NCBI GenBank assembly: GCA_009602725.1
Contig: WELB01000025.1
Span: forward strand, 709,184-755,568
Length of the DNA: 46,385 nucleotides
Reading direction: 5' to 3'
Source of the DNA: Spirogloea muscicola
Lineage: Eukaryota; Streptophyta; Zygnematophyceae; Spirogloeales; Spirogloeaceae
The position numbers and the translations under genes were made by a program. Within the stretch, counting starts at the first letter, position 1. Each line of letters opens with the position of its first letter. Positions 3,807-37,524 of the stretch are shown piece by piece. Under the pieces are notes generated by a model. It worked only from the letters and a program-made list of their open reading frames with translations, was not told the origin of the DNA and did not search any database.

Positions 3807-6800
3807 TCACAGCCCAAAGAGTATGTAATACACAATGAGGATTGGAATGGAGATGACCGTGCCGAAGCTTACCCTGTGCTCAAGCAAGACAATCCAAAAC
3901 CCATCAGACCAGATCACTTTGATCAAAAAGCGACCAGTATTTTCTGTCCAAACTGCATCCAATGGTGGTCTACATACTCCTAGGATATTGCCCGGGAATT
4001 TACTTATTATTGGAAATTGAAAAAGTTATATCTTAGTGTAGGACTCCAGCCTTAACTACAATCCACTGCAATCACTTCCCCCACAGACGAATTGCAGAAG
4101 ATTATGCAGAGTCAAAGAGGACGGGTCCCTACCCAGTGCTGAGCACTTCTGCATGGACCTTATACTCATTGGCAAATACAAAAGCCACAATGCCCTGTGG
4201 AAGCGCTGCCTGGCAAGAGTTGCAGAGCAGTCATCTCACACTAGAATTAGGCTTTGTGAGCATAGGAAACTGCTCCAATATCACAACCTTGGACAAATTC
4301 AACACAAAACAAATAATACAACAACAACAAAAAACAACAACTACTACAGCAACAACAGCAACTTATGCATCATGTACGCTTGGGGAGAACAAGGCAATGT
4401 GCACCTGAAGAGTTGCAATGCGAAGGGTGTCGCCGCGGAGGCCGCATGCCGCGGAGATGCCTGCCATAAGGGCAGGCCCAGCAATGAAGCGCGTGGCGAG
4501 GGTCCAAGCGGCGATGCATGCGCCGCATGGAACCAGCGTGTTCTGACTGCCCATGAAGAGGCCTGCCAATGTTGCAGTGATGGGAGAGTCAGGCAAATAC
4601 TGCTTTGTCATATAAATTCTTGTTGGCAGGTTATCTTGATTGACCTGCATATATGTTTCCAACTAGAATAGAACTTGGTCACGCTAGTCTGATGCTTGCT
4701 TTTAGGCACTGCTAGAACCTGAACCCTGAATCTCACAGTCCTTTGTCAAAGTGGCTATAAAGGCACCCCTTATGACTCAAAGCCATACTGACAACAAGCT
4801 TGGCCCCATACTACCTAGGCTGTACATTGACATGCCCAGGCCAGTGCGAGAAATGATGTCCAAGGTGTTCCGTAGCATCAGCGGCATGCCAAAGTCAAAG
4901 CTGTTGGACACAGGGGGGATGCACAGAATTGAGAAGCATTATAAGCACAGCCCTGCAGGTCTCCAGGAATCTGTTCACAATGCATAGGATGGAAACAACA
5001 GGGAAATGCAGAACTGCACACTTCCCTGCATACAAGGACTACTCCGTCACATGCCAGAGCTTCGCAGAAGACACTAGTCGACCATGCATAAGCAATGTCC
5101 TTCATGAAGCTCTTCCTTTACGGACAAGGCTTTAATATCATTGACGGCATGTGAGGTAGTCTCAAATTTTAGCATATATTCATTGTTGTCGGACAAAAAG
5201 CTCACCCAAACGATAGCAGTGAATATGCAACACCAAGAGTGCTTGAGTACATGTTGGGGTTTGCAATGAGCTTCCGAGCCAGTATTTTGAGTATCAGGCG
5301 CCACGAGGACTTCGGCCTCAGAGCAGCCAGTGAGCGCGAGGACGCCTCGGCAAAGCTGACACCGGCAACACCCCTCCCGCCTTTACTTGTAACCTCCTCA
5401 GATACCTTGTGACCTGCCTCACAGTCACTTTCCGATCCATTCATTTCCCCTTGATCGGATCCTCCGTGTCCTGCAACAAGGATGGGCACGGTCAGACGGA
5501 CAGGAATGTCAGCCCCCTTCATGCTACCTCTGTGTTAGATGTTCGGATTGAAGTGCCAATGCTGACCGCAAGCCCGATCTAAGTGTGCATCATGGCACAA
5601 TAACAAGTGCTTACTGCAAATGATGGAGCTTACTGCAAATAATGGCCCTTAGGTTTGACCTGAATCTGCAGATGACAGCTCATAGGCCTGCCTGGCAGGG
5701 TTGCAAGTACTTTGCTTTACTATCACAAGTATACCTCATGATCTGGCACAGACTCCAGTGTCATGTGTCAAGATCTTTCAGCACGAGCTTACCCATGCTG
5801 TTGCAGGAGCTTGCTTGGTCAGGGGCTGGTCCCGAGCCGGCGTCCTCGCCAGGGGGGCATTGACTTTCTGCCGCCTTCAAAGGTGGCGGCAGAGCCGTGC
5901 ACAACGTGGTCGGGGTTTGGTATCCATCACCCTCCATTACTGCTGTCAACTCAGCAAGGCGTGGCGGGATAGAGAGCACCCGCACACTCTCCGAGATGGC
6001 CGCTCGGCATTCAAAAGCCACGATGAGAAAGGAGTACCATATGATGACCTGCCGTCAAGAGGGACAATGCTTGCTGCTTATCACAGGCAGTGAGACTTGA
6101 AACATATTCATGAACTCTTTGCAGCTGAATCCTAGTCAAGGAGCGCTGCAGACGCTGTTATGACTGATCTTCTTTTCTGGGGTGCTTACGGGGGTCAGGC
6201 TTTGGTGTTCAGGGGCTGTGCTCAGAGCTTTGAGCGCAGGCTCTACGTGAAAGCTACCACATTCTCAATTGTTATGTGATGAAAGTGCCAGTACTAGCAA
6301 GTGTTTACTGGATTGTAGAAGGTGCCCAACTTCTAAAATTTCCATGTCACGAGGGGTGTGGCAGAGGTTCCCTGACCTACATGACCTTGCACGAGTGACT
6401 GAATGCGGCCTTACTTGGGCAACAACAATCTGGGCAATGAGGTTCCCAGCACGAGCACCGTACATGGCAGTAAGCACCGGAACACCTGAGAAGCCGCCAT
6501 AAGAGCTGCAGAGTAAGGCCACGGACAGGTTTACATTGGACGTACCAAGCAGAGGAGGTGGATTCATGTGAGCATGTGAGCACGAACACACTGCTGGGAC
6601 CAACTAAGACTTTAAAGACCTAGAATTTGGTTGGCAGATCTGTTTGAGGTGCTATACTCTTTATTCCAAAGCAAACCAATTGAGGCTCTGGATTGAAATT
6701 TGTGAAGTGTGCTGAATCTCACCAATGATGAGCGTGTTGGGCAGCGTGGCGACCATGAAGATGGTGAGTGACCAGTCGTAGGCCCACGCGCGGAGGCGGT

Positions 6801-7317
6801 GAGCAGAGGACAGGGTGAAGCGGTGCAGCCACCGCTTGGGCGCCCAGAAGGCGGCGGCCAGGAGCGAGGCCAGGACCACAGCCTTGCTCACGGTGTCCGC
6901 CAAAATGAAGAAGTACTCGATGTGGTAGAGGTTCGTCTCTGCAATGAACTGCCGCAAGTAGGAGGGCGACTAAGTATGGTTCTCGGACTCGACGCTGACA
7001 AACTTCGAGGCCCCAGCTTCGACTCTACAGTCAGGGGCTGGAGGACTGAATTGAGGGTTTAAGCTTGTGAATTGGCACTCGCTTCCAGAGCGGAAGCCAT
7101 GGCTGGCGACATTGGCGGCTGCATGTGAGCAGTGGGCAGTGCAGACCTGGAAGCCGAGGACGGGGACGGCGACGAGGGCGACGACGCGGTTGACGCCGGC
7201 GACCTGCTCGGGCGTCAGGATGTGGAACAGGCGCACGGACGCGTAGCCGAGGCCGATGGCGAAGTAGAGCGGCACCACAGCGCTGAGCACGTGGTATGCG
7301 TCGCTGCCGGTGATCAT
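3807..7317 (-). CDS. PIN: PIN-family auxin efflux carrier (complete, 9 exons)
   Basis: PIN proteins export indole-3-acetic acid across the plasma or ER membrane using ten transmembrane helices in two bundles of five. Nine exons can be joined by hand with consistent phases: 7317-7147, 6969-6723, 6485-6415, 6048-5793, 5470-5206, 4900-4815, 4562-4405, 4209-4133 and 3873-3807, giving 465 aa. Exon 1 starts [20 protein letters not shown] and contains [17 protein letters not shown]. Exons 2-3 give [18 protein letters not shown] and [19 protein letters not shown], the most conserved PIN segment. Exon 4 has [16 protein letters not shown], the end of helix 5. The hydrophilic loop runs from about residue 177 to 304, roughly 128 aa, between the long plant loops and the very short ER type. 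The second bundle has [56 protein letters not shown] and ends VYYILFGL-stop as in plant PINs. I see no in-frame stop or frameshift. A PIN-LIKES (PILS) protein is excluded by these motifs. Confidence 0.93.
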
Positions 7318-8150: not shown

Positions 8151-8214
8151 GCCAGCCCAGCAAAGCAGTCCTATTCATTGTAGAACATTATACCTGTATT
8201 GTGAGTCCTATGTT

Positions 8215-8270
8215 TCAGACCTTGTCCACTCTTTGGGGCTGGCCTCTCACAGCAACCAGTCAATTTGGAA
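8215..8270 (+). mobile_element. LINE 3' tail (hairpin end)
   Basis: This contains cagaccttgtccactctttg, then gggctggcctctcacagcaa and ccagtcaatttgg. These match the tails near 37370, 21377 (minus) and 29335 (minus), including the shared end CCAGTyAAwtTGG. No ORF remnant precedes it, so the copy is almost completely 5'-truncated. Confidence 0.7.
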
Positions 8271-8896
8271 GCGTTGTACCTCTATTGAGATGCCACTCCT
8301 TCACAATGTCACGTGTGGAAATCTGCTGATGTTGCAAGGTCATGCAGATGACTCTCTGCTGTCGGCATCAGTTGCTCTGACATATCATGTCCCAAACCCC
8401 CAAAGCACCATCGCTTTGCTAGGTTAATGCCCATCAATAAAGCTTATGTCCAATGTACAGTGCATGCCAGCAACTTACTGCCTCGACTGGTCAGCCACTG
8501 GACGACGCAAAAAGTAAGCAGGTCGGGAAAATTTTCCTTGACATGGTGGAAGGCAACTGATCCCACTTCATATGGCACTGGACGCATCACCCCATACGGA
8601 TTTTTTGGGGACTTGCAACATCAATGGCGTTTCGCCCAGTACTAACCTGTCGGTGGTGAGGTTGCACAAACACTATGCTCATGCCTGGCTTGCCAGTGGT
8701 GCAGATGGTGTGTTTGCATCATCACCATAAAACCATCAGCACCACTTGCAAGCCATGCAGGACTTCAGCTTGCTAAGACATGGTCCTGCTACTACCAATC
8801 TGGCATTGCCTATTGGTCTTTCTGGACCACGTTGTGCTAAAAGGGGGTGGCAGGCTGAGCAGAGTTGCTGCTTTGGATGCTAACACTTGGTCCTGG

Positions 8897-11800
8897 TCAA
8901 AGAATGCTATCCATCTCCTTGAGGGGTTGCAGTTGACCCCAAGAGGAACCTACTCGTACTTTCACATGCAAGGGAACTGCAAGAAAGACATGCATTGTCC
9001 AACGAATGTCACATACTGCAAATGGTCACTAAAGCACTTGTGACGCAGGCAATGACCACTCGAGCGAAGGTGTTCTCGGTGTAACATGGCACACGTCCTT
9101 TCCTCATAATACTAAGGTGAGGCATTATAAGGCATAGAATGAGAGCTCTCACCACGGAGGCTTGCAGCACTCTCCATGCAGTGGCGGACTTCTGCGGCTG
9201 CTTGACGAAGGACCGACTGGTGGACTTCAAGCAGCAGTTCATCATGCATCTGCACACAGATGAGCAGTTCATAATAAGGTTCACTGTTGTGAGGGCCACC
9301 CATGTCTGACAACTTCTATGAGCGTCATCAAATGCTACTGTAACATCCTGTGGCCCTACTATGTGCTTGCTGGTCACCTGGAGCAGCAAATGAACTTTGC
9401 CTTCTAGCTCCTTAACAGTAACTTTATCCTCTGTATCTGCTTCTTTGAGGCTGCCAATACGTGAGTGTAGGTTGAGCATGGCAACCTTGATGATGTCTGC
9501 TGCAGAGCCCTGTAGTGAGAATGCCATCAGCATTAAGCTCAGCAGTCTTAGTCTCACTTCTGCGAAGCCAGCAATTCACTTTTGTCTAACACGGTAACAA
9601 CAAAGGGGTTGCTTACTTTTAGCAGGTCCTACCAGGTAAGCCTGAGGGCAAATCTTAGATAGCACACCTGGCAGATTGAGTTGACAGACTGCCGTCTGCC
9701 TTTTGCTCGGTCATGGTGAGTCCAACTATTGATCTTGTCTATGAATCGTTTCCGCCCATTCAAGGTTGCAACGTACCTGCGCATCAGTCCATCCTAGAAT
9801 GATGAGAAAGCAGAAGTATGACATGCTTATTGTGCCCAGATGAAGAGCAACAACCAGCAAGACACTCCTTGCTGTATGTGCTCTGAGTGCTGCTCAAAAA
9901 CAGCCGCTGCTACAAGCATACGACCTCACAAGTAAAACAAGACAAAAACTCGAAGCCCAGAACTTGCTCAGGAAACTGTATGTGTGCATCAAAGCAACAT
10001 GTACAATCTTGTGAAAGATTGTATGAGAATCAGTCTCACCCTCTTTCTTTGCATGAGGCAATCTCTTGTGCCAGCCAAGACCTGACTCCAGGGTACATAT
10101 TCAGAAACTCCTCTTTGCGCTTTGTGGCTTCCTCCACACAGCACCCGAGCTTGTCGGCAAGAGCATCGCATCCCATCCCATAGAGAATGCCATAGACCAA
10201 CCTCTTTGCTTTTTCGCGCTCCTTCACTGTGACCTCACTGCTGTCTCTTTTCAGCCAGCTGATGGCAATCATATGGAAAAGGTCACCTGCCAAGGGCCAC
10301 ATATACAAATGCTTGAGTCCAGTAGTTGGCATTTCAAATATCCTTGCACTCTACAATCAGGACCGTGCTCTTCACAGGAACCTCCACACGACCTCCACAA
10401 TTGGATGACTGGCTGATGGTTTAGCTATTTCTTAGGAAAGGCTATATTGCTCCTACCGGCAGGTTCACAAAGAATATTGATAAGAGCCCCATCATTTGAA
10501 AAATGCGCCATCAATCGAACTTCAATCTGGGAGTAGTCGGCTGACAGTAAGACCCAGTCTTTCTGCACAGGCGTTTGGTTTCTCTCAGACGTCTTGCAGC
10601 AGACTCGTTACCCACTCAAATGCTGCACTGCTTGACTTCTACCCAGGAAAACACTCAAACTTGTTACTCCTGAGTACATCAAGTGCAATGTAGATACACA
10701 TATATGATATCTACCTATATCAGCATGTCCTGCGCAAAAGCAAACCTAAATGGCTCCCAAATAGTTAACAGGATAGGATGCCCATGACACAAGGAGACAC
10801 TGTACCTCATGAGGGAGGAAGAAGCTTCGGGGATTGATTTGCAAGCTTGTCACACTGTTGTCCTCATCTTTCCAAGTGAACGTAATGGCATGCTCAACGC
10901 ACTGCTCAACGGCACACATTCCAAGTCTATCAGAGGTCGTGGTTGAGCTACTTGTGGGGGCAAGCCCGAGGTCAATGAAAGAACAAGGTGCATGGAAGCA
11001 GAAGGGAAGGTTAGTCAATTTCTTTCTCTAGAACTTTACATCTTTCCAAGTGAACGTAATGGCATGCTCAATGCACTGCTCAACGGCACACATTCCAAGT
11101 CTATCAGAGGTCGTGGTTGAGCTACTCATGGGGGCAAGCCCGAGGTCAATGAAAAAAGAAGGTGCATGGAAGCAGAAGGGGAAGATTAGTCAATTTCTTT
11201 TCTCTAGAACTTTACATTGGGCAAGCCTGGCACCTATCACTTCAAGCTCTGACCTGCAAATTTGGATCTTCCATGGCAAGTCGTCCCGTTGACGACGCAG
11301 TCTGTTGCCAAGTACCATATATGGTAAAATCATCACTGGCTTTCAAAGTTGCATCCAGACCCTCAGTAGCACTGCATGTATCTCTGTTCATGTGAAGCCT
11401 GCAATCCTCTGTTGGTTTCTTGACGGCAAGTGTACTGTCAGCATCTTTGCAAGGTTTTGCATAGTGGACTAAAGTCTCGAGGGTCCCATATAGTAGCTTG
11501 GAGAGGCTGCGGTGCTCCTGGATGATCTTCACCACTGGGTGCGTACCTCTGTAGAAGTAAGGCCAGAAGTAAGTTGTTACGGACAAGCGCTTGCATGATG
11601 ATTGAACGTGGCAGGTCAACGTCAAGACTGAATTGTTTACTATGCAAGTATTAGAGCCATCATGAGACTGGCAAAAGCCAGCTCATGATGTGTTGTTAAG
11701 GTTGGGATTCAGCTTACTTCAGGCACTCTAATGCCTGCTTATCGGTGCTGAAGTGTCGCAATCCTTTACTTGCTCCTGGAGGCACAGCAAGCTTGAGATG

Positions 11801-14800
11801 CGAGTAGAGGACCTCTGCCACCTCAGCAGGGGTAGAGACTGAGAAAGTTGTCCCTGAAAGCTGGTGTGCACAGCTCTCTAGTTCCTTGAGCTTCAGCTCC
11901 ACGGCCTTCTGGCTTTCTTTGCAGGCCTGTTTGTCAAAGCGAATGCCATGCAGCTCCATGTCCGCCAAGACCCGTACCTACACATGATCAGCCCTCACGG
12001 CTGTTACCGAACTCGTCGCAACCATGACAAGGCAAGGCAGGTGACTGATTTCTGCCTTACATCGGCAGAACGACTTACCAATGGCATCTCCACGGAGGAC
12101 AGTGATATCTGGAGATCTTCTGAAAGAATCATCTTGCCAAGAACGCCATGCAGGGCTCGCACTTGTGCGACCCGCCTGCAGCAGCCATCATGAGAAACCC
12201 TTCCGACTTGCCGGGCCCACCTCCCAGCTCTGGCTGCAGATGCAGCCACTTCAGGTGGAAGGTGCTGCACCACTTTCTGTTCCAATGAGCTTGCTTGTGC
12301 TCTCACAGAGCTTTCACGGTCAGGTGATAAGATCCACAATGCAATCCTCAGGTCAACAATAGGGTCGTTGAGATGGACGGCCTTCAATTCCAGCAAAGAG
12401 TCCTTGTTAGTTGGCAGGTTAACTCCCTGGCTTGCAGTATGAGGCCCTTGCTCCCAGCTCCCGTACGGCAGCCGCACCACTGGCTTACGGAGAACTTTGA
12501 CTTGCTCTTTCAGATCCCACCCAATCTTCCTTACACAGCTCCTTTCGAAGATGCTTCCGAGAGCCTGCCACCGCGTCAGACTTCCAGCAATCACATTGTG
12601 ACTCCCTGGGCTTTCTTGTACATTCTTGGCTTGGCCTGGCGATCCATCCGGTGCCTGGATGTATTTGCTCCTTGCTAGTTTGAAGTAGTGAACCCGAGAG
12701 CCCTCCCAGCACATTGCAACACCCTCTAGAATCGGGCGAGGCAGCTTTTTGCTGATGTGTAAGTCAAAGAAGACATCTTTTGCACCAGCCGAGGATGCAA
12801 TGAATGCAGGCAATCCTCCTGGCATTTTCTCAATGTTCACGGGCCCCTGGTCTTCTTTGCCCGCATGACACAAGACAAGCCCTGCTTCTGATGCAGAATG
12901 CTCTTCCTTTCCAAGAACATCATGTGTTGCCTTGACTTCAAAGAGTTTATCTGCACTGCCCTGTTGAGAAGCAATCTTCTGTACTGTGTCACGCCGTTGT
13001 CTGGCCATCTCGCCTGATGAGCCATTCCTTGCCGCATCTTTGTCTTTGACTTCTGGCGCCAGGAGAGAGGACGCAGCTTTCTCGTGCAGCGGCACCAATG
13101 TGATAGCACCTTGAGCATTTTGTCCACCTTCAAGCGCACTTAAGCTGGAGTCTTGAATAGGTGATGATAGTGCCGAAGGAACAGGCAGACCTAGAGTCTG
13201 GAAGGTCAACAAGGCCGACAACCTTGCCTCCTCTGCCTTCTCCAAGACCAGCCGCATAGCACCTGAGACCAAAGTATTCTTCAATCTTAGCTGGTCAATG
13301 TGCAACAAAAAAATTTTGCAGCATTTAGCCCCCTTATGCAAGGGGATAGAAGTGGGCTTAAAGGGTAAGCAGACCGCTTGCTGAATGTAAAATATGTAGA
13401 CTGTCAGGCCAGACATCACACGAGATCTTACCCTTCTTGATCTTATGCGCGAGAGAGACTAAATTTCTTTGTTTGGCTTCACTGCTATCTCCTCCTGCCA
13501 AGGCCTTCACGATTTCTCCTGAGGATGCTTCTGCCACAGCCTGAGGTGTTCGATAATTTGCCTTGTACAAAGCTCTTGCTCGTGACGCCTGACTTGCACA
13601 GATCAGGAGCCTGATCAGCTACGATTGCTGAACTAGAGTACTATTTTCAGCAGGAACCATGTCCTCATGCACCTTCCATAAAGCTGTTGAGCATATGTTT
13701 CCAGGTGAATGTAAGAACCTTGACCTGCAAACAAGTGGGGATATCCTTTTCTGCAAGGCTCATACCTTGACCAAAGGGATGCTTGTTAATTCAACAATTT
13801 CTTGCCGTACTCCATAAGAAACCCTGCGCTGGAATTTCGAGATCAAGCCTTCCAGATCGTGCCAACCAAGCCTTTCGCAGAAGGTGCAAACCATGCCAGC
13901 AAATTTACCAGCTGCATCCTGAAGACCCTGGACCATGCCTCTCTGCACACCGTAGGTGTCACAGATGGTTGCCAAAGGTACCTCCTGTTGCAGTCAAGGC
14001 TCGATGCTGCTTGTTAATATCTTTCCTGCCCAGATTCTCAGAATTGTCTCTCTCGAGCAAAAACAAGCTTGCCTGGATGTCTCAACCTCAATAACACAAA
14101 CTGAACACAATTACTAGCTCAGCAAAGCCACACTGGCAATGTCAGGCTACACAATTCCAAGAGACTGACCTGAACAACTTTGGCTAGAAGAAGCGAGACA
14201 TAAAAGCGCCTGCATATGCGTAGAGTCCCCTCTATGTCCTTCTCGTCCTTCTGAAGCCCGTTGAACTTCATGCTCTTGACTCTCCTCCTCATATTTTGGT
14301 TCTTGATCTGCCCAATGTGAAGCATCCGCAGTAAAAACGATTCTGTAACCCCTACTCTGACACCCACTGCCTGTTTACAAGATGATGGAAAGGTCAGGCG
14401 CTGACAAATTAAAGGCTTGCAGACTTGGTACTCCTGGATACCTTGCAGACAGTGAGCTGCAGGCTCAGCTCTCCTGTGGAGAATTAAGGCAAATATCAGG
14501 CTGCGGAAATCAAGCATTGGTACAACAAAGAAGTGCCAAGGTTAGGCAGCAACTCAAGACCTGATCCTGGGGTGAGAGCCTTAGGAAATGACTGTAGTAC
14601 TTGCTCCAGTCAGGCTCCAAAGTGATGTAGACAGGAGTTACCTATGAGCAACATAAACGGGCAAGTTTGTAGAAGGTCAACAGAGGGCGAATGGTGCTGC
14701 TTAACGTGCTGGGATTGTAAGCTTGTCCAATGTAGGTCAATCAAACAAGCTGAAAGTTGAGTGCTGTGAACATTCACAAAGACCAACTTGAATGAAGGCA

Positions 14801-17800
14801 GATGAGCAGATAAGGAAGAAGCATCTTCTATCTTGGTGGACAATGATGTAGGACCACTACCTGGTACAGAAGGTGGAGATCAGTGGACAGAACAAAGCCG
14901 TCTCTGGCAGTTTTGAGATCGTCATACACAACAAGGGCCTCGTCTGGTGGGAGGGAGGAGCCAAAGACAGCCCGGCCTAGTGGAGTTGCATCGTACTCTG
15001 CCTTAACAGTGTCCCACCTGATTAGCTCTCTGTGACACAGCCACTTAAGTGCGGCCCGTGCAGAAGCATACACCTGGACCCATGAGGTATTCATGATCTC
15101 ATGATCAAAATACACAGAAGACACAAGTCCTCTCAAAGAGAACGTAAGTACTAGATCTACCGCAAGGAGAACGCAGCAACACAACTAAGAGGGCTCACGG
15201 TCATGCCACAAGTTCCCTCAATGCGTCGCTAGTGGCTCTAGCTTCTGGATCCGCGCTTTGAAACCCTGAGCATGCTGGACAGGCGCGCTGACCTCTTCAA
15301 CAGAGCTTGTGATATGTAGCAGAGTGCATCGAACAAATCGCTGGACATCGGCGGGTGTCAAGACCGATGAACCTGCTACAACCTCCAACAATGCCCTGGT
15401 AAGGCCATTTTTCTCCTCACTAAGACATGATTGCAGAGGTTTGCAATCTCCATTCAGAAGTCGCTCGACCCGCTCAATATCTCCTGGCTTGCACATCACA
15501 ATCTGAACAGAAAGACTTCCAGATACGAGTCACTTCTCTTGATCTGTCCACCACTCCAGACACAATATCCTGAGACCCAACATCATTCACCATCTTGCAG
15601 TGCTTCTGATCAGTCCATGAATCACACGTCTGCTCCTAAGCACAAACTGCTGCCCTTGACATGTCAGATCATACATTTGAGTATGTCATAGAGAGCCCAC
15701 TACAGATTTATAGATACTCTTGTTTGAGCAGCAATTAAGGGACTCACGCATTCGCCCTTCGTGTCAATTCCTGCACGACCAGCACGACCAGCCATCTGCT
15801 GGTACTTGGTGCTATCCAAAAAGTCAAGCCCAACTCTAGGTTGTCTGAAGATGACTCGTCTGGCTGGCAGATTGACTCCTGCCGCAAGAGTGGAAGTGGC
15901 ACATAATACTTTCACGATACCTCTTCTGAAACAGGTTTCTACCATCTCCCTCTCCTCTCCCTGCAAGATAGCTGATCATGTCAAGGTGGCAGTCCTAGAA
16001 GTCATTGTGACTACCAAAACTTGTTGCCACCAGTGTAGCTGCATAAAAGCATTGTGGCTGGAAACGGGACTCACAGTCAAGCCAGCATGATGGTAAGCGA
16101 CTCCTTTTGGTACTGTTTTAGCTAAAGTAGGGTCAAGGCCACTGGGGCCTTTCTTCAAATCAGCTACTATGTCCTCCCAACCGGCCTGTAAATTCCCGCT
16201 GCTAGGTAGGTACTTGGCCACATGTCGAGCAGAGGACTCACAGTGACTCCGTGTTGAACAGAAGATAAGCACTGAGTGCCCATCTCTTATGACCTGCTCA
16301 GGAAAGGCCAGCGAAAGCAAGAGCCGGGTAAATCATTGGTGTCCATTCATTGTCAAGAAGAGCTTGACTTTCCATTCTTCTCAGCAGACCAAACATGTCC
16401 AAGGTGCAATAGATCTTCCTAGCGTGGCTATATTTGTGCTTCGGATGAAAAGCAGATCAACACTCTATGCTATTTGCTGCTGGACATGGTTAATGGAGGG
16501 CAGGTCTTACTTCATGACAAAGTTCCACGAGTTGATCTGGGTCTTTGCCATCAATAGTAGCTTGCTTTCTTAGCACCCTCACGCGCTTCATCTTTTTATC
16601 ATAGATTGTCTCACCAAGCTTCACATATTCCTCTAAAGGAACGGGCCGGTAATTGGTCTCAAACATCACAGCCTGCAGACAAGCAGCAAGAGTTGTCCAA
16701 TCAAGCTGGCGTCTAAGTACTTGCAACACACATTGACTGGCTAGACGCTCTTGCAGCCAAATAAAGCCCAAACAGCCTCAGAGAAGTCTGAGATTACCAG
16801 ATGCTGAAAACAGTCATTGAAGGATGGAGCAGCAAGATAGCCAATAATTATGCAAAAGGGACACAGAGTCAGCAAAGGCCCGCTTTTGCTGTAGAAAGTC
16901 CTGCGAGACTCTGGAAAGGCAGAGTAGCAAGCTAGGCTGGGTTGATAGATATGATGTCTTACATGAAGCCAGGTAGCCACTACAGACGTGTTTGGTAATG
17001 TGGCACTCATGCCAACTAGTTGCAAACCATCCCCGGCTTCGCTCTTGCTACTGCTGCCCGCGGCATCAGCCAGGGGTGGGCTATTTCCAGACCCAGCTGC
17101 TGTATGCGCGACCGGCTCCCCAAATCCAGCCGAGTACTGCAGTTTCGTGAGAAGCAGCTCCAAAAGGTAACCGCGGTCTTCATCTCCAATCTGTCACACC
17201 AGCCAGATCAGTGTAAGCGAGATCTGAGAAAGGGGCTGAGACGAAAGGGGTTCACGATTGAAGAGTCAGATGATATCTGTAAGTACATCACAACTGGTAA
17301 TTCTCGATGATAGCAAGCCAATTTGCATCACTTCAATGATGACCAATAAAGGGTGATCTTCGTCTCATTCCTCATAGGCATACCATATGCATCTCATCCA
17401 CCACAATGATAGCAATCTCCACAAGCCTTCCCTCCTCAAGGAGCTTGTTGACCACTGTATTGGCCTTCTCTATTGTGCAGACTGCTACAGCACAGTCCTT
17501 TGGCAAGGAAGGGCCTCCTTGGGATCCAAAGAAGCAGACCACTCTTTTGGACAGCGGCTCAAGGAGTGCCTCCATGTGTGCAGCCTGCATTACCACAGTA
17601 TGCATACAACATCAGACTATGCCATGCTTCTCCTCAAGGCGAGAGGATATACAGAAAGCCTTCATCAAAGCCAACAATCATTTGCAGTCTACTACCTTCT
17701 CTGCAGATAAAGCCACAAAAGGTAACACTATAATGGCCTTCTTATTAGTGGCCATGATTCTCCTTATCATAATGATCTCTGCCACCAGGCTTTTTCCAGC

Positions 17801-20397
17801 ACTGACATACATAGGCAAGAAACTTGGTCAGACATAAGCTGCTTTTGCACCCAGGGAAAGACTCGCAGACAAACAATTATCGACCTTCAAACCTTCGACC
17901 AGGGAAGGAAGAAGTGGCACTCCCAATGGGGGCAAGGGCTGTGAAAAGCCAGCCCGAAAAAGAATTGACCAAGGGAAGGAAGAGTTAGTACATAAGTTGG
18001 ATGCCAACAAGCATGTCCAATTGCTTGATTTAGTTTGACACATCACAAGAGTCTTCTTACACACCCTGGCTATCTAGCATGTTAAGTGTGGAGCCAATAC
18101 AAATAAGGCATGCCCGAGTTTGATGAAGACTACCTAGTAGAGGCACAATAGACGAGGTTTTTCCCAAGTAACACACCATCAAGCTGCAGGCATTCCACTT
18201 GCCATCTGTACAATGACTTCACTCCCTTCTCTGCATAGACCTTGCACACGTCTGGTGGCAGCCAGGCACCAAGGTCTGTATCCTCATCCTTTACAGCGGT
18301 CACTCTTGCAGCATCAACTGCACACGGACTTGGCATCGTAGATGGCACAAAATCTCCTGATTGCACAGTGTGTGCTTTCCTGTCTTTCAAGCCAAGCACC
18401 AGGGCCTGCTTGGGTGGCAGCTCTGACGTCATCGTATCCTGTACAGCTGGCTCAGCTCCTTCATTTTTCGTATGATCATGCGTGCAAGTTGGCAAGGGCT
18501 TGAGAGTAGCGGGCTGTGACTCCAAGAAAGCTTCCTTTGCTACTGTGAGGAAGGTCTGCATTCCAGTGGATGTGTATGAGCCAGCCTGAGCAGCTGCCAT
18601 CTCCATGCATCTCTGATAGGGCAGTCCGGTATCAGGTTCTGAAGCAAGTGCTGGACATTCTAACTTTGTGACTTGCCCATCTGGTACGAGAAGCGAAGCT
18701 GCAGCAGAGTTTGCGCTGCTTGAAGGAGAACTTGGTCTGCTTTGCTGAATCATGTTTCTTTCACGGCCCAAAGAACTGGGATGTGACTTCACAATACAAT
18801 CTGGCAAATTCTGTGTAATTGGCGCGAGCCCAGTTCTATCCGGCTGGCTGACTGCAAAACAATAGAGAGCACATGCGTGTCACCAGATGCACCAATCAAT
18901 CTCTGGCATGGAAGCTCTCATTGAACATCCACATTCAATTGCACATTTAGCTAAAGAAAGGAGCAATACTTAAGCCAGACCATGTGTGATCAGTGCATGA
19001 AGCATCATGGACAGCTTGTCGCCTGTCCTGTCTTGGCATGGCAGGCTGCTTGACTGAAACATACCTGTTTTTCTGTTGTCGAGAGTCCTGGCCCTTTCCT
19101 GCTCCATTGACCTGGTCTCTTGCTCAATCAATGCACTACTTGGTTGCTCTATACAGCAAGTGGTTGGTGGCTCTGCCACAAGGGCCTCGCACTGTAATTT
19201 GAGCTTGCCATGTGCACCCTCAACTCCTAACCTGTCTGCCAGGTGTATGCATGCCTCCCAGAAACCGTCACCAGGAGAACCGTCACCTTTTGCTTCATCA
19301 GAAGAGGGCCAGCCAGCCTCTAAGTCCACCACATTCTGATTGTTGCCATTGCATCTCCTGTCTCCCGTTGGACTCTTAGGAGCCACAAAGCATAGAGTTG
19401 AGGGTTCCTCCTTTGCCAAGATAGCACTGCCAATCCTTCTGACCTGCTATTAAAACAAACACTGATCAAAATAGCCCTGCCCGAGTAACTGACTTGCTGA
19501 GCTCAAGCGCCGTGAAAATGACAAGTCGTACATTGTGGTGGTGGACTTGAGATTCTTATATTTTGAAGCTTGCAGTAGCTTGCTGGAAGACGATCACACC
19601 TCTTCTGCTGCCAAACCCTCTTCCAGACACTGCTTGCTGAGTATGCCTATGTTGTCATTGTTTACCAAGTCTTCTTGAGCTGCTGGTGGCCCTTGAGGAT
19701 CTTTCCTGCAAGGCGGAGACAGGAAATACCTGGATGTGTCTGCTGCATTGGCTTGTCTGCCATGCCGGCTTACTCACATGCGTGCATCTAACTAACCACT
19801 TTGTATCAACAAGAGCTTGACGAGAATGCAAGTACACTCTCCATAAGCTTCAAATCTCAAATTGCTACAGGGCATGAGTTACTGGTCTTGCCTGCAATAC
19901 ATGCCAAGGAAGTCATTGGCGCAATCCACCAGGAGTCCCTCAACTCCCCCCTGCTCGCTCTGGCAGGTGGCCTTGTCACAGTCTGACGTCTTTTTACCGG
20001 TGCTTGTACTTCTGTCCAGTCCTCCTTCGTCTGGATGGGCCTCAGGCCTATTCGAAGCTGTGAATGTGCATGCCTTCAGCAATGGCAGTAATCTCTGCTT
20101 GACAAGGTGCTGACCCACCAGGCCAGCATCGTCAACCCCTCGCTTGAACCCTTCCCCAGGTTCACATGATTTCTGCGAGTTAATCAAGAGTCCTTTACTG
20201 CTGACTTCTGTTATATCAATGGGGGTGCTCTTATCAGCTGCCAATAATGGGCTTCCGCTGGGCTGAGCCTTGAAGTGGACATGCTTGACTTTGTTGACGG
20301 GTTTGACAACAAGTGGCCTGATCTTCTTTGCCGCAAAGAACTGCACAGGCAGACAGTATGCATCATGTTGTGCACAGCTCACAACAAGGCGATGCAA
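8897..20397 (-). CDS. POLQ: DNA polymerase theta (helicase plus family A polymerase); N-terminus uncertain
   Basis: Pol theta (TEBICHI in plants) performs microhomology-mediated end joining in the nucleus. Many exons on the minus strand cover both enzymes. Helicase: an exon ending at 18134 joins one starting at 17801 to give the Walker A motif TSAGKS. DEMH (motif II) lies near 17390, SATLPN near 17000, FCSTRSHCE near 16250, and [10 protein letters not shown] near 15780. A winged-helix region follows ([20 protein letters not shown], near 15000), then a helical region ([18 protein letters not shown], near 13880) and a helix-hairpin segment ([14 protein letters not shown], 13540). A 471-codon open exon (13419-12004) holds the linker and the degenerate exonuclease-like part. 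Polymerase: [12 protein letters not shown] (11960), [20 protein letters not shown] (about 11310-11255), motif A DYSQIE (10538-10521), motif [17 protein letters not shown] (near 10200), [25 protein letters not shown] and motif [11 protein letters not shown] (9260-9230). The last exon is 8976-8897 and ends [19 protein letters not shown]-stop, joining exon end 9153 in phase. Upstream of the helicase, open stretches at 18807, 19419 and 20397 look like low-complexity N-terminal coding. A GC-rich frame starting at 21013 could be exon 1, but I cannot prove it. Confidence 0.93.
10866..11215. repeat. Direct tandem duplication (174/176 bp) across a POLQ exon boundary
   Basis: Copy 1 is 10866-11039 and copy 2 is 11040-11215. 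They are nearly identical, with a few substitutions and small indels. Copy 1 contains the splice acceptor and first 36 bases of the real POLQ exon 10901-10806 (minus), which encodes [12 protein letters not shown] and onward. Copy 2 repeats that acceptor and the same 36 bases at 11075-11040, encoding [12 protein letters not shown], and is followed at once by GTAAAG. Confidence 0.92.
17870..18000 (-). mobile_element. LINE 3' tail inside a POLQ intron, second subfamily
   Basis: On the minus strand it reads attctttttcgggctggctt then ttcacagcccttgcccccat then tgggagtgccacttcttcc. A copy at 41470-41550 is very similar over about 70 bases. The insertion lies within the 17802-18133 intron, between the exon that ends before the Walker A motif and the one that completes it. 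It is in the same orientation as the gene and makes up much of that intron. Confidence 0.8.
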
Positions 20398-21374
20398 TCA
20401 TTATCGCGCTTTCTGAAATATGTAACACTCGGCACATCTGTACCAGCAATTGTATACAAGGGCACTCTCACTGCTTTCACTGACCTCCCGCTATTGTGAC
20501 ATATGAAGTCAAACCATCGGTAAGTATCGCATAATCCACCATCTGTACTAACCTTTACTACCCTGATCAAGGTCTGACTCTGGCATTCTATAGACCTTAA
20601 CGATGGAGACCTTGACGAATTAAATCACTTGCTGAAACTCTCAGCAATACCGTGCGGAAAAAACAATATCATTATACCGACTTAGATATCCATTAGCCTC
20701 ACCCCGTCAAGTCTCGCCACCTTCCGCTTGATTGGAACGTCTCCTGTGTGCGGTGCACTGCCCTCCATACTCTCAGCAGTGGCAAGCGCGGCCACCTCGA
20801 GAAGCCGCGCTGGACACCGTCAGCACGGCACGGCAGCCGCGGCCGCATGCTGGTCGTCAAGACCACCGAGAAGCAGCGCGTCCTCACGCTTGCAGATATG
20901 GCAGCGGTCACTGGCTCGCTGCCGGCGGCTGCCAGTGCCGCAGCCTCAGCGCCAGGCCCTAAGAGGCGATCCTCGCCTCCCGGAGCTCGCACCGGAGTCG
21001 GGGGCCTCTCCAAGCCCTGCGCGAGACGGCGGCGGGCGCTGCGGCGCCGCCGGTGGCGCCGGCGAGCGCGGCGCGCCCTGCAGCGAGCGCGCCAAGTGTC
21101 AACAGTACGCTGCAGTGGGAAAGCTCATGCAAGTTCCGAAGGGAACCCACGACTATCGAGTCGCGCACTGATGGGAAAGCGGTCGTTAATAACGACGGGC
21201 GGCTGTCGGGACCGGCCAAGTGGCTACAATCGTGCGCCTATGGTGGTGCTCCTATCGCAACGGCCACTAGCCGTGCTGCGAAGCAGGTCAATGGCAAGAC
21301 AATCACACAGCTCCGCAAGTGGTTGAGGGCTGTCGAAAGAAGGAAAGCAACAGCCACATAAAAACAACAGCGCT
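20398..21374. other. GC-rich region upstream of POLQ, possible first exon
   Basis: GC content rises sharply at about 20720-21110, as at other gene starts in this window. A minus-strand frame from 21013 begins MERPPTPVRAPGGEDRLLG and reaches a GTGAGG donor after about 40 codons, so it could be POLQ exon 1. A plus-strand frame from 20748 is also open. Codon evidence does not decide between them and neither resembles a known protein. The section 21115-21374 shows no gene. Confidence 0.35.
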
Positions 21375-21376
21375 GC

Positions 21377-21911
21377 CAATTTGACTGGTGGCTGTGAGAG
21401 GCCAGCCCAAAAGAATCTACAAGGTCACATAATTATAACAAGGTCAAAGAAAAAGATTTCGTGTATTTGGAACAAACGAAGGCCAAATGGCCAAGTACAA
21501 AGGCACGCACATCTTAAGACCTACATAACCTACAGTAGATTGACCCGCTCAGAAACCACGGGTCGAAACATAAAGGTCGCTAACCGATGCCTGGATACTA
21601 GATGGCAGATACGAAGCCCTTCTGCTACCAACTAGAGCTCGCCCAGCTTTCTGGTGCAAAGCATTAGCCTGAGCACGCTGCAAACAGGCCGAAACTCGTT
21701 GTCGCAACAACGACAGATAAGCAGCTGGCAAGCCCATCTCAGCCGGGAACACATCTGCATGTCGTGTGTAGCCTAGATTGGCTATGTTTTGAAGGAGAGG
21801 AAGGAAACAAGGACCTAAGCAGCCAAAGATGTCGATTGCTGCTGGCAAGAGCTGATCACATCGGGGGTAATCGGAGTAGTGCTGCAACTTTCTTTGCTCA
21901 GCACTGCCCAC
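21377..21911 (-). mobile_element. 5'-truncated LINE: ORF C-terminus plus 3' hairpin tail
   Basis: The minus-strand frame ending at 21549 carries AAIDIFGCLGPCFLPLLQN, then RQRVSACLQRAQANALHQKA, then GRALVGS and the terminal SVSDLYVSTRGF-stop. It aligns along its length with the copy at 41700-42079. This is the post-reverse-transcriptase C-terminal region typical of algal LINEs; no reverse transcriptase catalytic motif is present. About 120 bases after the stop comes the tail, gaccttgtagattcttttgg then gctggcctctcacagccacc, ending near 21377. The copy is truncated at its 5' side. Confidence 0.82.
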
Positions 21912-23701: not shown

Positions 23702-24591
23702 NNNNNNNNNNNNNNNNNNNNNNNNNNNNNNNNNNNNNNNNNNNNNNNNNNNNNNNNNNNNNNNNNNNNNNNNNNNNNNNNNNNNNNNNNNNNNNNNNNN
23801 NNNNNNNNNNNNNNNNNNNNNNNNNNNNNNNNNNNNNNNNNNNNNNNNNNNNNNNNNNNNNNNNNNNNNNNNNNNNNNNNNNNNNNNNNNNNNNNNNNNN
23901 NNNNNNNNNNNNNNNNNNNNNNNNNNNNNNNNNNNNNNNNNNNNNNNNNNNNNNNNNNNNNNNNNNNNNNNNNNNNNNNNNNNNNNNNNNNNNNNNNNNN
24001 NNNNNNNNNNNNNNNNNNNNNNNNNNNNNNNNNNNNNNNNNNNNNNNNNNNNNNNNNNNNNNNNNNNNNNNNNNNNNNNNNNNNNNNNNNNNNNNNNNNN
24101 NNNNNNNNNNNNNNNNNNNNNNNNNNNNNNNNNNNNNNNNNNNNNNNNNNNNNNNNNNNNNNNNNNNNNNNNNNNNNNNNNNNNNNNNNNNNNNNNNNNN
24201 NNNNNNNNNNNNNNNNNNNNNNNNNNNNNNNNNNNNNNNNNNNNNNNNNNNNNNNNNNNNNNNNNNNNNNNNNNNNNNNNNNNNNNNNNNNNNNNNNNNN
24301 NNNNNNNNNNNNNNNNNNNNNNNNNNNNNNNNNNNNNNNNNNNNNNNNNNNNNNNNNNNNNNNNNNNNNNNNNNNNNNNNNNNNNNNNNNNNNNNNNNNN
24401 NNNNNNNNNNNNNNNNNNNNNNNNNNNNNNNNNNNNNNNNNNNNNNNNNNNNNNNNNNNNNNNNNNNNNNNNNNNNNNNNNNNNNNNNNNNNNNNNNNNN
24501 NNNNNNNNNNNNNNNNNNNNNNNNNNNNNNNNNNNNNNNNNNNNNNNNNNNNNNNNNNNNNNNNNNNNNNNNNNNNNNNNNTCGCAGGCGG
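23702..24591. other. Assembly gap (890 N)
   Basis: A run of N flanked by CCG/GCC trinucleotide repeats on the left and GC-rich coding sequence on the right. It hides the 5' part of the U-box gene. A separate single N at 29139 interrupts a GCC run in the zinc-finger gene. Confidence 0.98.
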
Positions 24592-27331
24592 CGCCGGCGG
24601 TGGCCGGCGGGGCCAGGCTGCGTCGGCCGCCGGCGACGACTGGCGGGACTGGTGGGAGCGGCTGGCCTGCTGCAAGGAGTGGGGCGGCTATGCTTTGCTC
24701 TGGCTCTGGCCCGCCACCGCGCATCTCCAGGGCCATGGCGAGGACGGCGGTGGCAGGGGGAGCCCGCGGCGGGCTGACGGCAGCGACGACTGTGGCAATG
24801 ACTGCGGCGCTGCGGACCGCCGGCGGGCACAACGGACGCTGGCCGGCGGCGTCGGCAGCGGCGGTGGTTTGGAGGAGAAGGGCGAGCGCTCGCGACGCAA
24901 GGCGCAGGAGCGGCAGCGCGCCAAGGCGGAGCGCGAGGAGCTGGAGGCTGAGGAGGCGCGGCAGCGAGCGGAGGTGGCGCGTCTTGTGGAGGAGCGGCGG
25001 CAGGAGCTGGAGGCGGAGCGGAAGCGCAGCCTCGAGGCCGAGCGGCAGGAGCGCAGCCAGGAGCAGGAGCACGAGCAGGAGCAGCGCAAGCGGGAGCTGG
25101 CGCATGAGCTCGAGCAGGAGCTGGAGGGGAGGAGGGAGAGGGAGAGGGAGAGGGAGAGGGAGAGGGAGCGGGAGCGGGAGCAGGAGAGGGAGAGGGAGAG
25201 GGAGAGGGAGAGGGAGAAGGTGAGGGAGGGGGAGACTGGGAGGCCGAGAGTGGCGGAGAGGCCTGCAGCAGCGGCCGCCAAGGTGGCCGCCAACACTGGC
25301 GTGCCACATGGGCCTCCAGTTGCCGGTGGCGCAGGGCGGAGGAGAGACAGAGGTTCCCGAAGAAGCGAGGCACGGCAGGACAACCGGGTCCCCGAGCAGG
25401 GCCTCGCTGCCGGCGGGCGAGCAGCGCCGCCGGCTGTCCGCTCGAATGCCCACGTGGCGGCTGCCGTCAGCGCCAAGGGGCCCCCTCCGGTGCGGCTGAG
25501 TGGCGTGAAGGCCACGGCTGCATCAGGGGCCAAGAGCCCGAGCACAGCCGGCGGCGGTCGACTTTGGGGCCGCAGGTTGCCACTATTGTCCGAGCACGGC
25601 GGCGCGCCGGCGGCTCGGCGGCCGGAAACGGCGGCGCCCGTTGGGGCTGGCCATGCGGCGGCGCAGCAGTCGCCCGGGCCAGTGCCTCGCTCGCCGCCAC
25701 ACCGGCAGCCTGTGCTGCCGCCAACGCCGGAGACGCCAGCAGTGAGCGCTGCGGCGCAGCCGCTGCCACAGGCGCCTCCCCACCCTGCCACCACGAGCAA
25801 GCCGTGGCACCGACTCTTCTCCGTGGTAGCCAGCTCCGCGCCGGCACCAACGGACCCAGTGCTCCCGACGCCGCCACCCAAGCGTGGGCCGCCGCACCTG
25901 CAGCAGGTGTGGCCGGCTCCACTGCTGCCGCCGCCGCCGTCTCAGGAGCTGAAGGTGTCCAGCGGCAGCGGCGATGGCGAGCTCGGTGTGCCCTCCTCGT
26001 CGCCCTTCTTCTTCGGTCCTGCCGCGACGCTCTTCTCGCCGCTCGTCACGTGCGCCCTGGACGTTCCGAGCTTGCGCAGCGAGCAGCCGCCGCCGGCTGC
26101 CAGCTTGGACCAGCCCCCAGATTTCGACCGCCTGCCGCACGACTTGCTCGGGGACGACTGGATGCTTGTCAGTACGACGACGCCTTCCCTGGGACCGCCA
26201 AAGAGCCCGGGTGCCGCGATGGCTGCCGACAGCGACAGGGGCGGCTGCAGCAGCGACGAGGGGTGGCAGCTGTGGGGTCCTCCGACGCCGCAGCTGGCAC
26301 CGCCACTGGCGGCCTTCCGGCCTGCCATTGGCAGCGGCGGCAACAGCAGCACGCTCTCACACACCGCCGCGCCCTTCACACCTACAGCTGCCATTGCCAC
26401 CGCAGCCAGCGGCACTGTGCCAGCGGCAGTATACACTGCTGAGCCTGGTGGCCTCCTTCGGCAGCTGTCCTACCAGGCGCAGCCCTTCATGCCTGCCTCC
26501 TCTGCCGCTGCCGCAGTCACCACCCCCTTTCCACTTCCTGAGGGCATCGCCAGCCCCGCATACCTTCATGGGCGCCAACCTTCGCTTCTGCCGCAGCAAT
26601 TTCCGGAGGATGAGGCCGCAGCAAGGCTCCCCACGTCTCTCTATCCCCTCATCACCAGAGACGAGGAGTTGTCTGGCAGCGATGACAAGTGCTGCTTTAG
26701 CGGCTCGCCTGGCGCTGGGGCGCTGGCTAGCGAGGGGGGTGATGGGCGGCACGAGCCAGTCATTGTTGCGCACGACGAGGAGGCGCATTACCTGCCGGCG
26801 GAGTTTGTGGACTGCATCACCAAGGAGGTGATGGTTGACCCAGTCATCACCGCTGATGGCCACTCGTACGAACGGTCCGCCATTCAAGTATGGTTGAGGT
26901 GAGGGCGCCTCGCATACTCAACTCTCCCATAAGTCACAGCGTCGATGCACTGGCAACTTGATGCTCTAGTCGCCCTCTTTGTGCCATGAGACTTCTGATC
27001 TCTCAACCTCGCTGCTCCCTCTTGAGACCGCGTCAGGCACCACGACACGAGCCCGATGACAGGCGAGGTGCTGCCGGCGCCACCACCAGGAGCCGGCCTG
27101 GGCGTTGACAAGACGCTGCGGCCAAATCACATTCTACGAAGCCAAATACTGGAGTACCGCGAGCGCCTGGTGCGCGGGTCAGTTGTTGCAGTTTGTGCCC
27201 AACTGGAGCTGCTTGATGATGCGGACTACCTTGTATACATGCAAGCATCCCCTGCTTATGGCCGCCCAGGATTTGGGTGGCATGCACTTGCAAGCAGTGC
27301 TGCTGCTTGCTTGCGATCAAGTGGGTGCTGA
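24592..27331 (+). CDS. U-box E3 ubiquitin ligase, 5' end missing in the gap
   Basis: U-box proteins act as E3 ligases that pass ubiquitin from E2 enzymes to substrates. Two exons are visible: one open from the gap to 26898, and one at 27037-27331, joined in phase through AG/G (Arg). The U-box spans the junction: PAEFVDCITKEVMVDPVITA then DGHSYERSAIQVWLR in exon 1 and HHDTSPMTGEVLP...TLRPNHILRSQI in exon 2, which matches the family core. N-terminal to it lie a tryptophan-rich stretch (DDWRDWWERLACCKEWGGY, near 24640-24690) and a long Glu/Arg coiled coil (about 24870-25225). A long Pro/Ala/Ser-rich low-complexity region follows. The frame upstream of 24695 stays open to the gap edge, so the start codon is not in view. 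No kinase or ARM repeats are visible after the U-box; the protein ends about 50 residues beyond it. Confidence 0.85.
25125..25222 (+). repeat. (GAGAGG)n-type microsatellite in coding sequence
   Basis: A nearly pure run of gagagg/gagcgg hexanucleotides encodes an alternating Glu-Arg tract in the coiled-coil part of the U-box protein. Because the unit is six bases, length changes keep the reading frame. Confidence 0.85.
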
Positions 27332-29213: not shown

Positions 29214-29334
29214 TTAGCTCTGAGCAAGGGCTTCCAACCTCCGGACCCTAGCCCTGACGCGCCAACAACCCACCTTCCCGTACCAACCCCCGCGCCTAAA
29301 GCGTGCACCTCGACAAGTGAGCAAGCGCGGTCAG

Positions 29335-29393
29335 ATTAACTGGTCGCTAGGAGAGGCCAGCCCAAAGTAATGGACAAGGTCTGAGGGAGCCGA
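29335..29393 (-). mobile_element. LINE 3' tail (hairpin end)
   Basis: The minus strand reads cagaccttgtccattacttt then gggctggcctctcctagcga then ccagttaatctgac, close to the tails at 8215 and 37365. It lies back-to-back with the plus-strand LINE remnant that begins about 30 bases further on. Confidence 0.78.
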
Positions 29394-33867: not shown

Positions 33868-33932
33868 CCTTCCGGCCCTTTCAAACCTTGTCAAATCCAT
33901 TGGGCTGGCCTCTCACAGCCATTGCCGTACAT
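33868..33932 (+). mobile_element. LINE 3' tail (hairpin end)
   Basis: It reads ccttccggccctttcaaacc then ttgtcaaatccattgggctg then gcctctcacagccattgcc. The GGCTGGCCTCTCACAGCC hairpin is intact. A minus-strand tail follows immediately, so two insertions face each other. Confidence 0.75.
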
Positions 33933-33954
33933 TGGGAGAGCTATTTCTTCCTTT

Positions 33955-34462: not shown

Positions 34463-36684
34463 TTATAAGAAAAGGAGATTGCTTGAAAGGCTGACGGCGA
34501 ATGGCTCAACCAGAAGGCGAGTGAGGAGGTAGAAGGTGATGCCGAGTGCAATGGAGATGGGCAGTGCCGGCAGTGCCTTCTTGTGCAGCGCTAGGAGGAT
34601 GAGTGTCAAGCCGAGGCCAGCAATCACGGCCAGGTAGCACGCGTACACGGTCATGAGGTCATACATGGCCGCGCGCCCGACAAGCACGCTGTAGAAGATG
34701 AAGTCTCCCAGGCCCAGCTGCACTCATGTATGGCAAAGTGCTGGGCTCAGACTTGCTGAAGCAGCCTAGACCAACAAGCTTGGATTTAATGTGAATTTGG
34801 GCTTGCTGAAAGAATTTGACCTAGTGCTAACAATCTTACAGTGTGCAGCATGGAACTTTGCCAGCGGACACAGCAGAAGCTAGGCTGTTTATGTCAGGGA
34901 TGACTATGGTATACCTTGATGGCATCTCTGAGCTCGAATTCGCCCACGCCATCATCGTCGCTCTGATCCGCTTCCAGCACAGGTATGCGCCGCTGAACAA
35001 GGTCAGCACCGGAGGCAACAGGCAGCGCCATTGGATGCACGCGCCCCGGGCCCATCGTCGACTCAGTCGTGCTTGCGACTGGCGGCAGCTGCTCCAATAT
35101 GAGAGGCCTCAGCTCCTCCTCAGCCGGCGTGCTCTTTGGGTCACTTAAAGGCACCGAGGACGACAACGGCACGGTCCTTGTTCCACTACCTCTGCCTGTG
35201 CATTCCATTGCACTGCAATGGTTATTCTTGCTGCTCAGCCCAAGTCCACAGAATGGCTGCTAACATCAGCTGGTTCGTACATTTTGCGGTACGGCAAATG
35301 CATTTCGCAGACGACAAGACCCACACGTGCTTTTCAAGCTAGAGCACCTTCATAGTTAGGAGTGGAGCTAGAAGCGTCGGTAGGAACTTGGACTTCCGGC
35401 TTGCCCTGCAACCCTTCCAAAGCCAGCGGCTCACCCTCATGCTGCACGTCACCATTGCTTCTCAAAATAAATTCTCCACCTTCTCTGGTAGGACGAAGAT
35501 TCACTCGGGCCGCCTGCAGGCGCTCCCTACGGCCGGTGTGCAAGGATGGAGAGGATTCGCTGCGCTCAGGGTCTCTGGGCTCGCTCGCAGGCGGAACTCG
35601 CCGCACGACGGAAGAGCGGGCCTCGTAGACGAGAGCAGGAATGTCCTCATTTCGCTCCATGGCCATCTCTACCAGCATCTTCAGGGGTCCTCCTGTGTTG
35701 ATATAATGTTCAGGCCAAGGATGTCAACGATAAGATGATTGAGCAATTAAGATCAATTCCATGGCTGCCGGAGCTGGAAACCTAGTGGTAACAGGCTGCT
35801 TCTTTCTTATTGGGCTCCCAACCTGACCCTCAGCAAGAATGCCTAAGCCTTAAAGCCTAGATTGAACACACAACAACAGGGAGTAGTCTAAGCCCAACTT
35901 GACGCAGTACACATTATGGAGCACAGCAGCTGTGTATGGTGCTTGTTGAAGCGGATCAATAGAGGTGGGAACTGTCTGTAGGTGGAGTACCTGGGACGAG
36001 AACGGCGACGAGGTCATAGACGGCCATGGCAGCAAGGAGGAGCCAGGTGGTCCACTCGGGCAGCTGTGTGAACCAGAAGGCGACGACAGCTCCGATGGCA
36101 ACGAGGTACGACTGCGTGAGGAGCAGCGGCAGCACCGGGGAGAAGACGGCGAGAACGCCGACGACGGCAAAGTTGTAGAGCAGGATGGCGAAGGTGACGG
36201 CGTCGACAGGCAGCGAGAGCGCCTGGACTAGCTGCACGGCAACGGAGCCGCCCATCCAGGCGAGGATGGTGAAGCCGGAGAAGGTCATGTAGGCCCAGAT
36301 GAGGCGCGTGCAGCGAAGGTAGAAGAGGCCGACGAGCGCAAAGGTGACGACCGCGATGGCGCCCACGAAGACGAGCGCGTTGAGGAGCGCGCCCACGAGC
36401 TTGGCCCCCGGTGGGTCTGACGCTCGCTCCTGGTACACCAGCGTGGCGATGGCGGGGCCCGCCTCGGGCGCGCCGCCTGGCAGGAGCACGCAGACCAGCG
36501 CCACGACCAGCACCATGCACAGCGACACCGGCGCTATGATCGCAGTCAGCTGCCCCCCGAGGCCGTCCAGCACGCTGCCGCCGGACGGCTCAGCATCCTC
36601 CAGGTCCGCCGCCGTCGCCGTCGTGTCTGAAGGCTCGGCCGCCATCGCTGGCGCGGCCTCGTCGTCCCGCTCGTCTCGCCTCAT
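34463..36684 (-). CDS. PSEN: Presenilin, catalytic subunit of gamma-secretase
   Basis: Presenilin is an intramembrane aspartyl protease of the ER and endosomal membranes, active with nicastrin, APH-1 and PEN-2. Four exons join in consistent phases: 36684-35991, 35692-35348, 35195-34915 and 34717-34463, giving 524 aa (511 aa if the second Met, at 36645, is used). Exon 1 has a variable acidic N-terminus, then six transmembrane helices ending with the first catalytic motif [15 protein letters not shown] (Asp224). Exon 2 starts [20 protein letters not shown], the conserved segment after helix 6 near the autocleavage region. The hydrophilic loop (exons 2-3) is unconserved. Exon 4 opens with [17 protein letters not shown], containing the GxGD motif (Asp445), and later has the PAL motif at residues 490-492 ([11 protein letters not shown]). 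Both catalytic aspartates and PAL are intact, so the protein should be active. The gene starts in a GC-rich exon. Confidence 0.95.
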
Positions 36685-37425: not shown

Positions 37426-37524
37426 GCTTGCTTTGCTTGTCAGTGGTAGGACGAAGTGCTCTCGAGGTCGGGTGCTCGTTGAAGGGATATTCAGGTGCGA
37501 GAGCAAGGCCGCCACCAGTGAGAC

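Follow-up and report, generated by a model that had tools for sequence, protein, structure and literature searches.

A divergent PIN-FORMED auxin efflux carrier gene with a hydrophilic loop of intermediate length, most likely of a streptophyte alga

In Arabidopsis PIN8 (AtPIN8), the auxin carboxylate is reported to contact Asn117 and Gln145 beside a proline-proline crossover, and alanine at either of these positions abolishes transport. A support site is formed by Asp75, Gln78, Lys79, Gln145 and Gln320, all of them essential with the exception of Gln320, and mutation of Ser146 is described as having no effect (PMC9477730). Regarding the general build of the family, Bennett et al. 2014 give a C-terminal domain of 154 aa in 235 of 241 complete PIN sequences, and an N-terminal domain of 158 aa that can be extended by an insert near N97/N98, of up to 18 aa and found mostly in grasses (PMC4104312). 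According to the same source, the hydrophilic loop measures 32-120 aa in the noncanonical clades and exceeds 150 aa in those long clades for which data are given, canonical PINs are further recognized by an HC1-HC4 consensus at 50% identity or more, or at 70% similarity, and the algal PINs known in 2014 were neither canonical nor truly noncanonical.

Algal PINs have been described in Klebsormidium, Mesostigma and Chara (PMC11982790, PMC7027972), with two PINs reported for Mesostigma and none for Chlorokybus (PMC7027972). The Klebsormidium protein (KfPIN) is described as giving clear auxin export in tobacco cells and Chara PINs as giving ambiguous transport in the same cells (PMC11982790), and the localisation of KfPIN in Arabidopsis roots is given as non-polar and lateral (PMC6677796). 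The ambiguous transport of the Chara PINs indicates that auxin export is not guaranteed by a PIN sequence. The protein described here, an algal PIN as well, is likened to those of these three algae by description and not by sequence.

The window analysed, a stretch of DNA of 46,385 nucleotides, contains a gene that appears to encode a functional PIN-FORMED auxin efflux carrier and to come from a green alga, most likely a streptophyte, a reading to which a probability of about 0.85 is given. The gene lies on the minus strand, from 7317 to 3807, and its nine exons (Table 1) can be joined in one frame without an internal stop; all eight introns have GT-AG borders and measure 195-366 bp each (2134 bp in total, 267 bp on average). 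The original prediction had placed a complete PIN gene at these coordinates, without its strand, with nine exons in phase running through VYYILFGL; the single open frame, the splice sites and the full-length family profile matches agree with it in all these points. Its product of 465 aa has to be corrected to 458 aa, the longer form presumably having come from an exon 2 start at 6969, 21 nt upstream of 6948, which adds SPSYLRQ between GFQ and FIAETN. This insertion falls in a conserved block where PIN1, PIN3 and PIN8 align without gaps to the 458-aa form, for which reason the 465-aa form was rejected and its exon-2 junction is probably wrong by seven codons; because the pyrimidine run is also better before the 6948 acceptor than before 6969, as judged by eye, 458 aa is taken as right. 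In vivo, the nine exons would be spliced as listed.

Table 1. Predicted exons of the PIN gene (positions in the window)
Feature	Coordinates	Strand	Length	Remarks
Exon 1	7147..7317	(-)	171 bp	Begins at the first ATG of its open segment; ends ...VLGFQ; phase 0 after residue 57
Exon 2	6723..6948	(-)	226 bp	FIAETNLYH...TLIIG; D75, S78, K79 and first crossover (P127, N128); insert at about residues 92-108
Exon 3	6415..6485	(-)	71 bp	Last residue Q156 (Gln145 of AtPIN8)
Exon 4	5793..6048	(-)	256 bp	Includes first half of hydrophilic loop
Exon 5	5206..5470	(-)	265 bp	Starts with second half of loop; ends ...SFG
Exon 6	4815..4900	(-)	86 bp	Size as reported for olive PIN exons
Exon 7	4405..4562	(-)	158 bp	Ends ...RIATLQ; size as reported for olive PIN exons
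Exon 8	4133..4209	(-)	77 bp	Second crossover (P415, Q416); size as reported for olive PIN exons
Exon 9	3807..3873	(-)	67 bp	Includes TGA; size as reported for olive PIN exons

A gene for the 60S acidic ribosomal protein P0 (RPLP0), with introns, occupies 321-2199 on the plus strand and is arranged tail-to-tail with the PIN gene.

The predicted protein was matched in hmmscan by a single NCBIfam model, TIGR00946 (auxin efflux carrier; E 5.4e-81, 272 bits against a cut-off of 246, profile positions 1-336 of 336, residues 1-458), and by a single Pfam family, PF03547 Mem_trans (E 1.8e-63, 215 bits against a cut-off of 25.7, profile positions 1-343 of 343). Fifteen PDB sequences were matched at E <= 0.1, headed by auxin efflux carrier components 3, 1 and 8 with 308, 293 and 248 bits (E 9.8e-91 for PIN3), which we take to be the Arabidopsis proteins; the remaining 12 are chains of the lysosomal cholesterol signalling protein/GPR155 and reach at most 26 bits. 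Plasmids gave one match in 72,556 records, an AEC transporter with 49 bits (E 1e-3, 25% identity, 29% of the query covered). Relatives were also sought in viral_contigs and genome_contigs, with two short peptide patterns in each scan; a pattern occurred in 32 and 59 stretches, respectively, none of which was confirmed, a weak negative. Over the columns common to all four sequences, the protein is 52% identical to PIN3, 50% to PIN1 and 43% to PIN8, while PIN1, PIN3 and PIN8 share 54-79% with one another, values that would fit a branching point outside the Arabidopsis paralogues. Of 164 positions common to PIN1, PIN3 and PIN8, 108 are kept and 56 differ.

Domain lengths, measured with the borders of Bennett et al. 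2014 (PMC4104312), agree with those of the family. The C-terminal domain comprises exactly 154 aa (305-458) and aligns without gaps to PIN1 and PIN3. The N-terminal domain has 174 aa against 158, the difference being due mainly to the insert in exon 2, which is situated within a few residues of the known N97/N98 place. The sequence appears to be that of a complete, divergent PIN gene, an ordinary addition to a known family that gains with it one complete genomic algal PIN.

With the same borders the hydrophilic loop is 130 aa long, and with narrower ones 127 aa, in line with the approximately 128 aa of the original prediction. Since 130 aa lies between 32-120 and more than 150 aa, the loop fits neither the canonical nor the short class. 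It exceeds the noncanonical range with both sets of borders, and it is without either the modular loop of more than 150 aa or the TPRXS sites of canonical PINs. The 127-aa stretch holds one TP, two RxxS matches and 19 Ser, but a search of it for TPRXS(N/S) phosphosites gave 0 matches, in agreement with the earlier impression that long Ser/Thr phosphorylation repeats are lacking. The description of the gene as a canonical PIN is weakened by the loop length, the missing TPRXS and a local alignment that reaches only the loop end, restarting at residue 292 with PIN1 (approximately the last 13 loop residues) and at 264 with PIN3 (approximately the last 41). The end of the loop may bear a short likeness to GLGGAEASQR of PIN3. 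An NPxxY match is kept at 312-316, just after the loop. Compared with Arabidopsis PIN1 and PIN3, the protein has 130 aa where just under 300 residues separate the aligned parts of PIN1, and its N-terminal domain is 16 aa longer; in PIN8 about 33 residues lie between the aligned parts. In length, the loop stands between the PIN classes defined in land plants, as has been remarked for other algal PINs. As the PINOID-type sites are missing with TPRXS, no switching by AGC3 kinases would be expected, and the protein may reside non-polarly in the plasma membrane and/or the ER.

PIN8 of Arabidopsis belongs to the same fold family and has the same site. Of the 16 compared positions that are named or mutated in the AtPIN8 paper (PMC9477730), 12 are identical to AtPIN8 and 14 to at least one of PIN1, PIN3 and PIN8. 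The equivalents of AtPIN8 D75, K79, P116, N117, Q145 and Y150 are all retained, so that the crossover and auxin-site residues are present as P127/N128, P415/Q416, Q156 and Y161, while V51 and I418 are the residues of PIN1 and PIN3. Two residues match none of the three proteins, S78 in the place of Gln78 and V157 in the place of Ser146, the latter being Ser in PIN8 and Cys in PIN1 and PIN3. The D75/Q78/K79 support site is thus incomplete, with D75 and K79 kept and Q78 replaced by Ser, a difference from PIN1 and PIN3 as well; a complete support site is a functional feature of AtPIN8 and not a criterion for the family in the cited papers. With 12 AtPIN8-identical positions and two more shared with PIN1 and PIN3, the elevator-type auxin export machinery seems to be in place with one substitution, Gln78 to Ser. 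The protein would function as a homodimeric elevator transporter, as shown for AtPIN8 and suggested here by the conserved residues. Ionised auxin, the probable substrate as judged from the sequence, would be bound between the scaffold and transport domains by Asn128 and Gln156, next to the crossover of Pro127 and Pro415, and would leave the cytosol as the transport domain rotates.

The sizes of PIN exons are conserved. The last four exons of the present gene measure 86, 158, 77 and 67 bp, and in olive PIN genes the last four exons are described as usually constant, with 86, 158, 77 and 67/73 bp (PMC9312197). The junctions of the algal gene were fixed before this comparison, and the literature search on exon sizes was made with the sizes already found in it. 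The equal 3' exon sizes are evidence for four of the eight introns that does not depend on the protein alignment, and they speak for a single gene structure handed down vertically in one unbroken PIN lineage; they are also usable as an annotation check. Towards the 5' end the structures differ: olive PINs have one intron (six-exon type) or none (five-exon type) before exon 5 and the present gene has four; by the reported exon counts, its 5' half exceeds that of canonical olive PINs by three introns (PMC9312197). Chara PINs are reported as intron-less or with introns of several to 20 kb (PMC11982790), in contrast to the 195-366 bp found here. The mean intron of Mesostigma, given as 1142 bp (PMC6947507) against 267 bp in this gene, counts somewhat against a Mesostigma origin, in a comparison of one gene only with an average.

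The Ser in place of the essential Gln78, the 56 of 164 shared positions that differ and the ambiguous transport by Chara PINs count against a working auxin carrier, and other readings of the protein have to be considered. As the Pfam domain PF03547 is common to both, it could be a PILS protein or a generic bacterial-type AEC transporter misnamed as a PIN. This is very unlikely in view of the scores, which are 248-308 bits with the three PINs but 26 with GPR155, of the single weak bacterial match among the plasmids, and of the C-terminal domain of exactly 154 aa. While PIN scores and geometry set the protein apart, PILS entered the comparison by description only, and they are reported as too divergent from PINs for adequate alignment (PMC4104312). 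Bacterial-type AEC identity was rejected on the same scores and geometry, and the original prediction was right in preferring a PIN to a bacterial auxin-efflux-family protein. The change of one essential residue, the Gln78 equivalent, could also mark a recently decayed or unexpressed copy; nine exons that are all open, GT-AG splice sites and conserved domain lengths leave only a slim chance of this. Moreover, the protein might be a PIN-fold exporter whose substrate is no longer IAA but a different organic anion, such as a phenolic acid or some other indole, a shift that would be due to the Ser at the support site and to the changed pocket neighbour. Q78S does affect a position essential in AtPIN8, V157 stands where PIN8 has Ser and PIN1 and PIN3 have Cys, and PIN/PILS proteins are described as not yet screened for other substrates (PMC9330825). 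Nevertheless, both crossover motifs and the equivalents of D75, K79, N117, Q145 and Y150 are kept, Ser is still able to hydrogen-bond and the S146 mutation was without effect in AtPIN8 (PMC9477730), which makes such a shift rather improbable. For the gene taken as that of a working auxin efflux carrier, Q78S in the support site would offer a natural test of the residues required for auxin transport.

The lineage of the gene is most likely a streptophyte alga. The product of the neighbouring RPLP0 gene matched 56 PDB sequences, the best being 4v7e with 425 bits and 4v3p with 411, presumably the wheat proteins, followed at 272 bits by what is presumably an animal sequence; these scores point to the green plant lineage and do not tell the branch. 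Late-branching chlorophytes use TGTAA as their poly(A) signal. Counted from the approximate stop codon, the first TGTAA follows RPLP0 at 1624 nt, PIN at 991 nt and presenilin at 476 nt, and the PLAC8 gene has none within 2 kb, so that three of the four genes examined have no TGTAA within 900 nt; this spacing counts mildly against a core chlorophyte. A chlorophyte PIN, whether it goes back to the common green-plant ancestor or was gained by transfer, would be compatible with an identity to Arabidopsis PINs of only about 50%, with the PIN claimed in Chlorellaceae (PMC7027972) and with a review that finds PINs 'less frequently' in chlorophytes (PMC8524130). Apart from the TGTAA spacing, this origin is made unlikely by the reports that give PINs from charophytes and not from chlorophytes (PMC4104312, PMC4844313), and by the four angiosperm-sized 3' exons, which fit the land-plant lineage, although an ancestral structure would look alike. 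If the gene nevertheless belonged to a chlorophyte or one of the earliest streptophytes, a doubtful supposition, a PIN with the four 3' introns (86/158/77/67-bp exons) would already have existed at or near the green-plant root, and an ancestor with a medium loop without PINOID sites and with a Ser support site would have been the source of the long plasma-membrane and the short ER PINs.

Elsewhere in the window, ARAGORN gave 0 tRNAs and Rfam 0 matches at gathering scores. An 880-base N run at 23702-24581 indicates that the window is part of a scaffold with a gap. Pieces of a DNA polymerase theta-like gene lie at about 9000-17600 on the minus strand; eight open segments were scanned there, giving DNA_pol_A, Helicase_C and POLQ_helical once each above the cut-off and DNA_pol_A once below it, with none in the other four. 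The same region holds a 142-bp direct duplication (10865-11006 and 11039-11180; 96% identical, spaced 174 bp). On the minus strand, a presenilin gene at 34493-36717 has an N-terminal part (35959-36717) and a C-terminal part (34493-34723), both PF01080, and two open segments at 38136-40142, DUF2985 (PF11204) and then PLAC8 (PF04749), probably belong to a single gene for a membrane protein. Dispersed repeats of 38-60 bp occur at 8214-8273, 17923-17960, 21369-21426, 29324-29381, 33880-33939, 37367-37426 and 41493-41530, with a varying core GGCTGTGA(G/A)A(G/A)GCCAGCCC or its complement, and the copies at 17923-17960 and 41493-41530 are identical. Additionally, GAGAGG-rich repeats with a 12-bp step are found at 25077-25262, in the same place as Glu/Arg-rich open segments.
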